A stretch of 51,083 nucleotides of DNA from NCBI GenBank assembly GCA_945910645.1, contig CAMDZB010000007.1, positions 1 through 51,083 of the forward strand, given 5' to 3'. A program made the position numbers and the translations under genes. The notes beneath the pieces were generated by a model. The model made no database searches. It was not told the origin of the DNA and saw nothing but the letters and a program-made list of their open reading frames with translations. The stretch's first letter is position 1. Each line of letters begins with the position of its first letter. Positions 10,941-15,759 of the stretch are shown piece by piece. The stretch is from an uncultured Spirochaetaceae bacterium. GTDB taxonomy: Bacteria; Spirochaetota; Spirochaetia; Sphaerochaetales; Sphaerochaetaceae.

Positions 10941-11873
10941 ATGCTGTATGATGGAGTAAAAGTTTATGCATCTCATCGTGATAAGCATTTTACAGATCTT
11001 CCTTTTAACACACATAGAATTGCAATTATAATCCTTCACACGGCAACAACGGATGCCCTAATTCGCATGCTAACGACGCTTGGCAACAGCGAGAGGAACA
11101 TCTACGTTGTAATTCCGTTTGAGAGTGATTTTGACAGAAGCGTGATCGAAAACTACCCAAATATAAACTGGATAGTCTACGAAAAGCCTGAAGACAGAAT
11201 TGCAATGACTATGGTTGCGTCAAGAGAGACGCACGAGGACTACGTTGCCGTACTTGATTCCACATACGACCTGATTCAGTTTGATGACGCTCAGATACTC
11301 GAAATGTTCAAAAACGACGATAAAGCCGTCTGTATCGCACCGTTTGTCTACAGCAACACTTCATCGCTTTTCCCCACCTGTTATGCACCTAAAATCAGCG
11401 ATAACATCAGGGTAGACCTTGTGGAACTGATCCCAGAAGAGTCCTTTGTAAACACGCTTTATCCGTTTATGTTGATGGGCGTCTACCGCAAAAAAACCTT
11501 CCAACTCGGCGGTAAAATCGACTATAAAATCAAAGACTTCAATGTGAGAGAATACGACTGCTTTGCTCGCATGTGGCTGATGGGATACCACACTTACATG
11601 ACGTCCACATTCAAGGTGATGTGTAACGTGGAATTTGTACCAATCATAGACCGCACGTATAACAGAGACACTAAAATTCTTTCATCAAAGCTTTTATCCT
11701 TCTATAAAAACCGAGGAGGAAACGCAGGATTACGTCCATTCTGGTGGTTGAACTACAAAATAATCTTCGTGCTTAAAGACGTAAAGCCGTTCTTAAGGAA
11801 AGCCACAATCGACTTTTACACGCTTGTGCATCTCTGGACAGTTGAAATGGGGGATGTGAATGATATACTTTGA
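10941..11873 (+). CDS. Uncharacterized protein, possible GT-A (GT2-like) glycosyltransferase fold
   Basis: I do not recognise this 310-residue protein by name. The pattern of residues 27-125 resembles a GT-A nucleotide-sugar-binding fold. It has a strand (I-A-I-I-I-L-H), a helix, a strand (I-Y-V-V-I-P-F-E), a segment ending in N-I-N-W-I-V-Y-E, and an acidic stretch in D-Y-V-A-V-L-D-S-T-Y-D-L where a DXD motif would sit. The C-terminal third is basic and aromatic. No signal peptide or clear membrane segment is present. Its last 14 bases overlap the next gene, so the two are translationally coupled. The role is unknown; a glycosyltransferase-like activity is a weak inference. Confidence 0.5.
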   Translation: MLYDGVKVYASHRDKHFTDLPFNTHRIAIIILHTATTDALIRMLTTLGNSERNIYVVIPFESDFDRSVIENYPNINWIVYEKPEDRIAMTMVASRETHEDYVAVLDSTYDLIQFDDAQILEMFKNDDKAVCIAPFVYSNTSSLFPTCYAPKISDNIRVDLVELIPEESFVNTLYPFMLMGVYRKKTFQLGGKIDYKIKDFNVREYDCFARMWLMGYHTYMTSTFKVMCNVEFVPIIDRTYNRDTKILSSKLLSFYKNRGGNAGLRPFWWLNYKIIFVLKDVKPFLRKATIDFYTLVHLWTVEMGDVNDIL

Positions 11874-12987
11874 TAACTCGTCAACATCGTTCCCAAAGGC
11901 GCCAGGAATACAAAAAGCTCTGGATGAGTACATAAACAACTATCCATTTAATATCAGTAGGGGTAACTACAGAGCATCGTATACTCTTGAGGAAAAGGTG
12001 TACAACGTACGTGAGAGTATTAAGGCGTTCTTTAATGCATCGGAAACATCAAATGTAGTATTCACATCTGGAGTGACAGCATCTCTTAATACGTTCATCA
12101 GGGGATTTCACAAGCAGGGGGACCACGTACTAGTATCCCCAATGGAACACAACGCTGTGATGCGCCCCCTTGAGGCTATGCGTAAGGACGGCATAATTAC
12201 GTACACGGTTATCGATAAAGACGACATCTTTACGGGTAACATCAAAAAGTACATCAAGCCTAACACAACATCGTTAATCGTAAACCATGCATCCAACGTC
12301 ACAGGCGATGTGATTGATATCAACGCATTAGGGGTCGAGGCAAAGCGGTACGGACTTGCATTTGCAGTTGATTCAGCACAGAGCGCAGGTGAAATCAACA
12401 TTGATGCGCGTAACATAGACTTTCTTGCATTCACAGCGCATAAGGGGATCCTTTCGCTTCAGGGGGTGGGAGGAGCGGTAATCAGTAAGGGTGTAGAGAC
12501 AAGGATCAAACCGCTTGTTTTTGGAGGCACAGGAAGCCGTTCATCGTCGTTTGAAATGCCTGATTTCCTTCCTGATAAGTTTGAGGCAGGAACGGGTAAT
12601 ATCCCAGGAATCATCGCACTTGGCGAGGGGATAAATTACATCAACACCGTTACGCTTGATAGGATACACGATCATAAAATTGCGCTACGTGACGAGTTTA
12701 TTAAAGGGGTAAGTGAAATTGATAACTTTGAGGTTGTATCGCTTCAGAATAACGATTTTGTAGGTGTGGTATCCCTTATTCACAAAAATAAGGATCTTGC
12801 CGAGATCTCAAATAGTCTTGATAGAGATTTTAATATCTGTACGCGCGTTGGACTTCACTGTGCACCGCTATTACATATGACACTTGGCACGTTCGAGAAG
12901 GGTGGAACGCTGAGATTCTCATTCTCGTACTTTAACACATCCAGTGAGGTTAAAGAGTGCATTTTAGCGCTTAAAACGCTTGCTTAG
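11860..12987 (+). CDS. Cysteine desulfurase-like class V aminotransferase (PLP)
   Basis: This 375-residue PLP enzyme is of the class V/cysteine-desulfurase family, closest to the clostridial-type branch. The PLP lysine is K195 in F-T-A-H-K-G. Cofactor contacts are H97 (E-H-N), D171 and Q174 (D-S-A-Q), and a catalytic-type cysteine is C334 in R-V-G-L-H-C-A-P. The C-terminus G-T-L-R-F-S-F-S-Y-F-N-T is characteristic. It could mobilise sulfur from cysteine or selenocysteine. No iscU, nifU or sufU scaffold lies beside it, so a Fe-S role is not shown by context. The start overlaps the previous gene and is preceded by G-rich GGGGGAT. Its stop overlaps the stop of the ymdB-like gene by a few bases tail-to-tail. 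Confidence 0.85.
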   Translation: MIYFDNSSTSFPKAPGIQKALDEYINNYPFNISRGNYRASYTLEEKVYNVRESIKAFFNASETSNVVFTSGVTASLNTFIRGFHKQGDHVLVSPMEHNAVMRPLEAMRKDGIITYTVIDKDDIFTGNIKKYIKPNTTSLIVNHASNVTGDVIDINALGVEAKRYGLAFAVDSAQSAGEINIDARNIDFLAFTAHKGILSLQGVGGAVISKGVETRIKPLVFGGTGSRSSSFEMPDFLPDKFEAGTGNIPGIIALGEGINYINTVTLDRIHDHKIALRDEFIKGVSEIDNFEVVSLQNNDFVGVVSLIHKNKDLAEISNSLDRDFNICTRVGLHCAPLLHMTLGTFEKGGTLRFSFSYFNTSSEVKECILALKTLA

Positions 12988-13790
12988 TCCTCTTTTTTAA
13001 ATAGTTTTGGATCGTAATTTACGCTCTGTTTAACAGGCGTGATGGAGAGCGCTTCACCTTTTTCGTTAAACTCAACAATCACGCCCTGAAGTTCAATGTC
13101 GTTAAAGTTTTCCTTTGAGCGTAGAGGAATGTTAGTCCTCTGTTTGTTGATCTCGGTTTCAGCGTCAAGACCGCCCACTGAGTAAACGCTTCCGCATCGT
13201 CCGTTGTCCGTGATGTATGCTGTGTGATTCTCGCTCACCTCGCTATCCGCCGTTAACACTTTGGTGTGGGTTCCAATAACGGCTGTAACCTTACCGTCGA
13301 GGTAGTGGAACATAGTTTGTTTTTCAGCACTTGCTGATGCATGGAATATCACAAACACCACAGGGTAGTTTTCCTTGATCTTATTAAGCGAATAATCAAG
13401 CGTTGTGTATGGATTGTTGAGCGTAGGGTGCATATTCTGGATTCCAAGCAGGTTAATCACAGCAACCTTTACTTCTCCAATGTTTGTGAATTTTACACCT
13501 TTTCCAGGGGTATCCGCGATTGGAAAGTTATACGGACGGAGCACCTTTGAGGTGTCTTTGATAAAGTCCATCATATCCCTTTTATAAAAAGCTTTTTCAC
13601 CAAGTGTGATTATATCAACACCCGCTTTCATAAGGCTAACTGCATTTTTTGCGTTGATACCAAAGCCGTTTGCCATGCCTTCGCCGTTTGCTACCACAAG
13701 GTCAACGTCTTTCTTTAAGTCTTTAAGGGCATTCTTGACTGCAGTAAAACCTGGTCGTCCTACAATCTCGCCGAGTACTAGGATTTTCAT
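12984..13790 (-). CDS. ymdB: YmdB-family metallophosphoesterase homologue with substituted metal ligands
   Basis: The 268-residue protein aligns along its full length with B. subtilis YmdB, a phosphodiesterase acting on 2',3'-cyclic nucleotides: G-E-I-V-G-R-P-G at 7-14, a G-T-H-T motif at 173-176, and Y-I-T-D. Several metal or catalytic positions are changed. Asp8 is Glu8, the N of the G-E-N motif is Gly38, the N-H pair is Glu65-Lys66, and the last His of H-T-H is Lys177. H150, H175 and E37 are kept. The enzyme is probably inactive on the usual substrates or has a remodelled site. ATG 13790 is directly preceded by TATACT with no ribosome-binding site; a TTG at 13808 is an alternative start. 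Confidence 0.82.
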   Translation of the reverse strand: MKILVLGEIVGRPGFTAVKNALKDLKKDVDLVVANGEGMANGFGINAKNAVSLMKAGVDIITLGEKAFYKRDMMDFIKDTSKVLRPYNFPIADTPGKGVKFTNIGEVKVAVINLLGIQNMHPTLNNPYTTLDYSLNKIKENYPVVFVIFHASASAEKQTMFHYLDGKVTAVIGTHTKVLTADSEVSENHTAYITDNGRCGSVYSVGGLDAETEINKQRTNIPLRSKENFNDIELQGVIVEFNEKGEALSITPVKQSVNYDPKLFKKED

Positions 13791-13845: not shown

Positions 13846-14619
13846 ATGGCATACGAATTAGAAGACGGCAGAATGTATCACATTCACTTAAAAAAGGGAG
13901 AGGTGGGGCGCTACGTAATCCTACCTGGTGATCCTGGACGCGTTCCACTCATTGCAGCATACTTAGACGGGGCAAAACAGGTGGCGTACAACAGGGAGTT
14001 CTGCTCGTATACAGGCACTCTTGATGGTGAAATGGTAACCGTAACAAGCACAGGTATCGGAGGCCCATCCGCTGCAATCGCGATAGAAGAATTGATAAAA
14101 TGCGGTGCAGATACCTTTATACGCATCGGTACTGCAGGAGGCATCAACACAAAGGTGATAGGCGGCGATGTAGTGATTGCAACAGGTGCTGTGAGGGCAG
14201 AAGGCACAAGCAAGGAATACGCGCCAATTGAGTACCCTGCCGTAAGTGACTTTGACGTCACAAGCGCCCTAAAAACAGCTGTTGAGAAGCTTAGGTTTAA
14301 GCATCACCTTGGCGTGGTACAGTGCAAGGATTCGTTCTATGGCCAGCATGAGAGTGAAAAAATGCCAGTCTCATATGAGCTTCAAAACAAGTGGGAAGCG
14401 TATAAAAAACTCGGATGCCTTGCAAGCGAAATGGAGAGCAGTACGCTTTTTATCGTATCACTCACCCATGATGTGAGAGCAGGCGCTGTATTCTCGATTG
14501 TGGGCAATCAGGAAAGGGCTAAGCTTGGGCTTTCAAACCCACAGGTTCATGACACTGATGATGCCATTAGAGTGGCTGTGGAGGGGATTCGTAACCTCAT
14601 CAAGTCAGACAAGCGTTAA
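13846..14619 (+). CDS. udp: Uridine phosphorylase (NP-I family)
   Basis: The 257-residue nucleoside phosphorylase splits uridine with phosphate into uracil and ribose-1-phosphate. Visible family features are L-P-G-D-P-G-R near residue 27 (phosphate site), the central [16 protein letters not shown] in the base-specificity loop, and S-E-M-E-S-S (ribose contacts). The length fits hexameric uridine phosphorylases. The C-D-S-F-Y-type loop favours uridine over purine nucleosides, though broad specificity cannot be excluded. With the uracil permease at 25357-26691 it forms a pyrimidine salvage route. Its last 15 bases overlap the convergent repeat-protein gene. The start is of the leaderless type. 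Confidence 0.9.
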
Positions 14620-15759
14620 CGTGTTGTTCTCAGTTTTAAGTGTTCTCACGCCGTCTATAACGTCCAAAGTGCCGCTATAAACATCACCTGTCTTTCTGTC
14701 TGTAACGTTTACAACTCTTCTTGTATTTTCATACGTGATCTTGATTAGGTAGTGCGTGAGGCGTATCTCCTTAGGCTCAGTGACTGGCTCTGTGATTGGT
14801 TCTGTGATTGGTTCTGTGACTGGCTTAATAACTTCAGTAGAAGGAACAGTAGGAGGTGATGGAACAGCAGGTTCAATGACCTCAGGTTCGGCGGTAGACT
14901 CAACGACAGGCTCTATAATTTCAGCTGTAGGTACAGAAGGTACGGATGGTACAATTGGTTCAACAACTACAGGTACGACGATAGGCTCAACGACAGGCTC
15001 TATAATTTCAGCTGTAGGTACAGAAGGTACGGATGGTACAATTGGTTCAACAACTACAGGTACGACGATAGGCTCAACGACAGGCTCTATAATCTCAGCT
15101 GTAGGTACAGAAGGTGCAACTGGTACAATTGATTCAACAATTTCAGGTACGACGGTAGGCTCAACGACAGATTCTATAATCTCAGCTATAGGTACAGAAG
15201 GCACGGATGGTGTCTTAACCTCAGGAACGTGTTTCTTGACTTCAGGGAGCTTCTCTTCAACCCTCATGTCTTCAATAGGCTTTTCTACAGGTATGATGAT
15301 AGGTTCAGGCTTTGTCTCTCTGATTACATCAACAGTGGCAGCATTAAGGGTAGGCTTTGTAGGTGTAAGAAGGCTCTCCATGTATTTGTATCGTCCTTCC
15401 TCTCTGATGCGCATTGCATTCTCAATAATTGCGTCTCTGATTGGTTTTAGCCTGAGTTCTTCCTCTTTCTCTTCGATGAGTTTTCGTCGTATTGTAATTT
15501 CATAGAGGCGTCGTCCTTCTTCCTTAAGACGTATTGCCTCGTAGAGTGGTGCTTCCTGTCTCTCTCTTTCTGCCTTTCTGATGTCATCATCGATGCGTGT
15601 GATGTAATTTAGCGGTGTATTGTCTTTAAGAAGCGATGGAATGGGGCGCTTTGCATTTATAAAGGTGCGTACTGTAAGCGAGACTAAAACGATTATCGCA
15701 ACGGATAAAAGTGCAATGATTGATAGTTTGATTGTGTTCTTGTTTCCTAGTCTCTTCAC
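14605..15759 (-). CDS. Single-pass membrane protein with Pro/Val/Glu tandem repeats
   Basis: The 384-residue protein has one N-terminal membrane anchor (about 10-32) and a charged helical region rich in Arg/Glu (about 55-130, possibly coiled coil). A long Pro-Val-Glu-Ile spacer follows (about 150-330), then a short beta-prone C-terminal domain (331-384). The spacer contains 29-residue repeats, [16 protein letters not shown] and so on. Two adjacent copies are identical at DNA level. The layout (anchor, stiff proline-rich spacer, small end domain) resembles TonB-like proteins that reach across the periplasm, but the C-terminal domain is not recognisable as TonB. A GTG start at 15759 directly follows an in-frame stop. 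Function unknown. Confidence 0.7.
14909..15169. repeat. 87-bp tandem repeats in the coding sequence
   Basis: Three consecutive 87-bp units start at 14909, 14996 and 15083. The first two are identical base for base; the third is diverged, and a fourth partial unit starts at 15170. The unit length of 29 codons keeps the frame, so copy-number change would alter protein length only. Confidence 0.9.

Follow-up and report, generated by a model that had tools for sequence, protein, structure and literature searches.

The window analyzed here, a 51,083-nucleotide stretch of DNA from an uncultured Spirochaetaceae bacterium with a source genome of 1.15 Mb in 33 contigs, carries on its minus strand a gene encoding a protein of the YmdB family (Table 1). 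An earlier note on this DNA had described the gene as intact without giving its strand; the minus-strand frame indeed runs uninterrupted over 268 codons, and the plus strand of the same interval is full of stop codons. The gene stands alone between the gene of a class-V aminotransferase (11860-12987), with which it converges and overlaps by 4 bases, and that of a nucleoside phosphorylase (from 13846), from which it diverges. Farther out, the window contains a plus-strand gene (10941-11873) that overlaps the aminotransferase gene and encodes a 310-aa protein with no Pfam match, and a minus-strand gene (14605-15759) for a 384-aa protein in which an N-terminal hydrophobic segment is followed by tandem Pro/Val/Glu-rich repeats.

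Table 1. Altered-site ymdB gene of the window and the codons of its pocket residues
Feature	Position	Strand	Basis or remark
Altered-site YmdB paralogue, 268 aa	12984-13790	(-)	ATG 13790-13788, TAG stop 12986-12984; PF13277 residues 4-252
Glu8 codon (canonical Asp8, metal-1 ligand)	13767-13769	(-)	Glu in 182/187 altered copies
Glu37 codon (canonical bridging Glu39)	13680-13682	(-)	Alignment to canonical YmdB
Gly38 codon (canonical Asn40)	13677-13679	(-)	Codon after Glu37
Glu65 codon (canonical Asn67)	13596-13598	(-)	Alignment to canonical YmdB
Lys66 codon (canonical catalytic His68)	13593-13595	(-)	Codon after Glu65
His150 codon (metal-2 ligand, retained)	13341-13343	(-)	Alignment to canonical YmdB
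His175 codon (metal-2 ligand, retained)	13266-13268	(-)	Alignment to canonical YmdB
Lys177 codon (canonical His177, metal-1 ligand)	13260-13262	(-)	Lys/Arg in 184/187 altered copies

The window protein matches PF13277 (YmdB) with 277.5 bits (cut-off of 27) over residues 4-252, which covers the domain fully, and scores below the cut-off of NCBIfam TIGR00282 (208.3 versus 254.15 bits). Its alignment with the solved Bacillus subtilis YmdB 4b2o (E value of 2.8e-48) covers the site motifs and leaves only small gaps elsewhere. An AlphaFold2 model computed from a 72-row alignment reached a high-confidence pLDDT of 96.6, and the top Foldseek match of this model was 4b2o (TM of 0.91/0.93, rmsd of 1.4); the YmdB fold is therefore present, in agreement with the earlier remark that the rest of the fold is well conserved. 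The matches that followed were 1t70, 2cv9, and 1t71 and, at a greater distance, the lasso-peptide epimerase MslH and Vps29. Canonical YmdBs of known structure (4b2o; Deinococcus radiodurans 1t70; TTHA0625, 2cv9; Mycoplasma pneumoniae 1t71) share with the window protein homology over the full length, the fold (TM of about 0.9), and conserved non-ligand motifs. In contrast to them, the window protein has replacements at the metal-1 ligands D8, N40, and H177 and at the catalytic H68, has an acidic residue for N67, and belongs to a distinct clade, and its gene does not adjoin that of RNase Y. Vps29, a eukaryotic retromer subunit with a scaffold role, shares the metallophosphoesterase fold as a distant structural match, but its sequence is far from that of the window protein and there is no specific relationship.

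The published Fe site of YmdB consists of D8, E39, N40, N67, H150, H175, and H177, and the catalytic dyad of H68/D71 (PMC10406935). The corresponding residues of the window protein are E8, E37, G38, E65, H150, H175, and K177, with K66 in the place of H68. Only the equivalents of E39, H150, and H175 are thus kept as canonical ligands, and the catalytic histidine is absent. The earlier note had read all of these residues correctly, as well as I148, F149, and T176. However, it had also counted Ile148 as a lost metal ligand, and this we reject because position 148 lies outside the published site (PMC10406935); D148 was invariant in the canonical copies sampled and variable in the altered group. 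Asp71 of the dyad was dropped as a diagnostic residue, as it is not conserved in the canonical copies of spirochaetes.

The same genome holds a second YmdB with every ligand in place (D, E, N, N, H, D, H, H, and H at the nine positions scored), whose gene (L031:6036-6830, genome G000, contig C3) overlaps the end of the RNase Y gene by 11 bases at its start. Pairing of rny and ymdB is common across the class. At least one YmdB match was found in 59 of 61 relatives, mostly two. In the tree, altered and canonical copies fall on opposite sides of a single branch (support of 100/99), and the window protein does not group with the canonical YmdBs; the split was kept after removal of the ligand-motif columns (99) and in a larger sequence set (97). 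The nearest named contigs belong to Sphaerochaeta, Sphaerochaetaceae, and unclassified Spirochaetales, and altered copies also occur in a few members of other classes of the phylum (L152-L154, L156, L157, and L160). Moreover, the 30 closest homologues all carry E8, E37, E65, K66, and K177, far beyond chance. Of the two checks named in the earlier note, the search for a clade that shares the substitutions as fixed features and the search for a second, canonical YmdB, both came out positive. The altered copy is an old, spirochaete-specific YmdB paralogue in which the two-metal site has been exchanged for strongly conserved charged residues.

An isolated pseudogene or an assembly error is refuted by these comparative data, since every close homologue carries identical residues at these positions. 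An unremarkable canonical ymdB that is in decay or was wrongly assembled would account for the lost ligands and for the TIGR00282 score below the cut-off (208 versus 254 bits), but this reading is scarcely credible given that the frames of the homologues are intact, the alternative residues are fixed, the copies occupy a branch of their own, and the constraint nearly equals that on the canonical copy. Over 435 shared genome pairs, pairwise identity averaged 46% among altered copies and 50% among canonical ones; with values this close, the altered copy does not evolve by unconstrained drift.

Among 391 genomes of the class Spirochaetia, 281 carry at least two YmdB copies, 21 carry one, and 89 carry none. 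The single-contig genomes listed have either zero or at least two copies, and the genomes with a count of three that were inspected proved to contain split matches of one copy. A PF13277 check of the 21 single-copy genomes, with a reading of the site residues, gave 9 that have only the canonical and 12 that have only the altered copy; in one of these 12, a contig edge carries the terminal part of a second copy, and the remaining single-copy genomes are mostly fragmented assemblies. The genomes with zero copies retain RNase Y. This combination is seen in family f24 (e.g., G114, G202, G254, and G334; Treponema-like by context), where both YmdBs have been lost and RNase Y has been kept. The joint absences of both copies may reflect few events. 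A search for YmdB in Leptospira-like lineages of the phylum (name inferred) gave no matches. The dependence between the copies is not absolute: a lone canonical YmdB is found in Brachyspira-like lineages (name inferred), and the altered copy stands alone in a few genomes of fair completeness (G513 and G567).

Within the group of the window protein, the site is almost frozen: in YmdB numbering, E8, E39, E67, H150, H175, and K177 occur in 91 of 91 sequences and K68 in 90 of 91, so that the set E8-E37-E65-K66-H150-H175-K177 of the window protein is virtually invariant. Of the 187 altered sequences taken together, 182 have Glu at position 8, 4 have Asp, and 1 has Gln; position 67 is acidic in 184 (Glu 147, Asp 37), and position 177 is basic in 184 (Lys 123, Arg 61). 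Position 39 is Glu in 104, Asp in 56, and Asn in 25, and histidine is found at position 150 in 172 and at position 175 in 148. His68 is kept in a single sequence and lost in 186, with Lys in 98 and Cys in 38; the cysteine (e.g., in L170, L149, and L273, outside the group of the window protein) is a second recurrent replacement besides lysine. The fewest changes required on the tree were 4 at position 8, 7 at position 150, 21 at position 67, 22 each at positions 39 and 175, 23 at position 177, and 38 at position 68. By conservation and change counts together, Glu8, the acid at position 67, and the basic residue at position 177 are therefore the most widely kept. Coupling between D/E at position 67 and R/K at position 177 went in the expected direction and was not significant in two attempts, there being too few independent pairs. 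Several altered lineages have lost H175, H150, or E39 and retained the gene, and a Borrelia-like genome with a 917-kb chromosome retains it although its site (E8, N, F, E, N, L, D, G, and R) is nearly devoid of metal ligands. Decay of the second metal site has thus occurred several times across the altered clade. Catalytic residues are gone from a conserved gene, as in a pseudoenzyme.

The neighborhood of the altered copies offers a different clue. A gene for RseC_MucC lies directly downstream in 128 of 182 testable altered loci (83 of 101 loci of the EExE type and 45 of 81 others) versus none of 49 canonical loci, and beyond rseC follow lptC, lptA, lptB, and often rpoN. In a related family, one locus (L138:8075-14613) runs from altered ymdB and rseC through genes for a metallophosphoesterase, a 4Fe-4S ferredoxin-type protein, and a peroxiredoxin to pyrG, lptC, lptA, and lptB, which suggests a redox or envelope setting. 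The altered YmdB could thus work with RseC, a membrane redox protein, or with the lipopolysaccharide-export genes, for example, as a cytoplasmic partner of RseC, whose N-terminal domain is cytoplasmic and can bind an Fe-S cluster in Escherichia coli (PMC11729352). We nevertheless consider this unlikely. In the source genome the genes are scattered, with rseC on contig C1, lptB on C27, and altered ymdB on C7, and RseC is missing from Borrelia-like genomes that have the altered copy and found in Treponema-like genomes that have neither YmdB. As the presence of RseC does not track that of the altered copy, the linkage, though real, is not strictly needed for function, and the case for RseC as an obligate partner is weakened.

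Two further explanations keep the protein an enzyme. The main rival for the group of the window protein itself is an MslH-like one-metal enzyme, with a single metal on Glu37, Glu65, His150, and His175, with Lys66 and Lys177 serving in substrate binding or as acid/base, and with a different reaction. MslH, whose closest structure is YmdB, provides the precedent: it has a YmdB-like core, has lost the second metal, and holds one Ca(II) at the equivalents of E39, N67, H150, and H175 in a repurposed site (PMC10406935). It differs in that it keeps the equivalents of His68/Asp71, uses those of D8 and H177 as its dyad, carries extra domains, and is only about 10% identical to the window protein. Acidic residues at positions 39 and 67 together with both histidines, i.e., four possible ligands for one metal, are retained in 143 of the 187 altered sequences, and the near-invariant K66 of the window's group, where all seven pocket residues are virtually fixed, looks more like part of an active or ligand site than of a passive scaffold. 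A one-metal site in this group is possible, and a metal-2 site made of E37, E65, H150, and H175 is plausible there but has decayed elsewhere. Over the whole clade, however, position 68 has undergone 38 or more changes and ligands are lost with the gene kept, which makes a clade-wide catalytic role unlikely, and overall we hold this explanation to be rather improbable; a catalytic role restricted to the window's group may exist. Retention of normal phosphodiesterase activity, through a two-metal site made up with other residues, would fit the unchanged fold and the acids at positions 8, 37, and 65 with two remaining histidines. It is very unlikely, however, with lysine at both the catalytic histidine and the metal-1 histidine, each fixed in the group.

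The explanation that we tentatively favor is that of an ancient paralogue that would lack binuclear phosphodiesterase chemistry and be kept for another job, most probably in partnership with the canonical YmdB as its regulator or scaffold. The metal-1 site (D8, N40, and H177) has been rebuilt as Glu8, Gly38, and Lys177, and the catalytic His68 has been replaced. In the alignment, Lys/Arg177 would fill the place of metal 1 and pair with the acids at positions 8, 37, and 65, and this pairing would keep the pocket folded without metal 1, with the basic residue as a putative electrostatic stand-in. The protein would then act by binding, either in a mixed oligomer with the canonical YmdB or in the same pathway; we propose this partner because retention and loss of the two copies go hand in hand, and we hypothesize the heteromer purely from that co-occurrence. 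The stronger version, in which a phylum-old pseudoenzyme subunit would sit in a mixed complex with the canonical YmdB and Lys/Arg would replace the catalytic metal, appears to us somewhat doubtful. Of the two interpretations offered in the earlier note, a pseudoenzyme and an enzyme with a changed metal site, both survive, although the wider clade favors a conserved, metal-independent role, given that nearly all of the metal ligands have disappeared from the gene in some lineages that still carry it.

In Bacillus, YmdB is a global regulator, the target of which is still debated (PMC6123443). The family is known; no description of a spirochaete-wide altered paralogue was found in the literature searched, and as subscription papers lay mostly outside the search, absence from them is weak evidence. 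Automatic annotation will label both copies as metallophosphoesterases, which is probably wrong for the altered one. Kept by most members of the class Spirochaetia, including ones with very small genomes, yet rebuilt at its catalytic site, the altered paralogue constitutes a natural test of YmdB roles beyond hydrolysis. If the mixed complex is true, spirochaetes, Borrelia-like ones included, would have a two-subunit version of a regulator that is a single protein in Bacillus.
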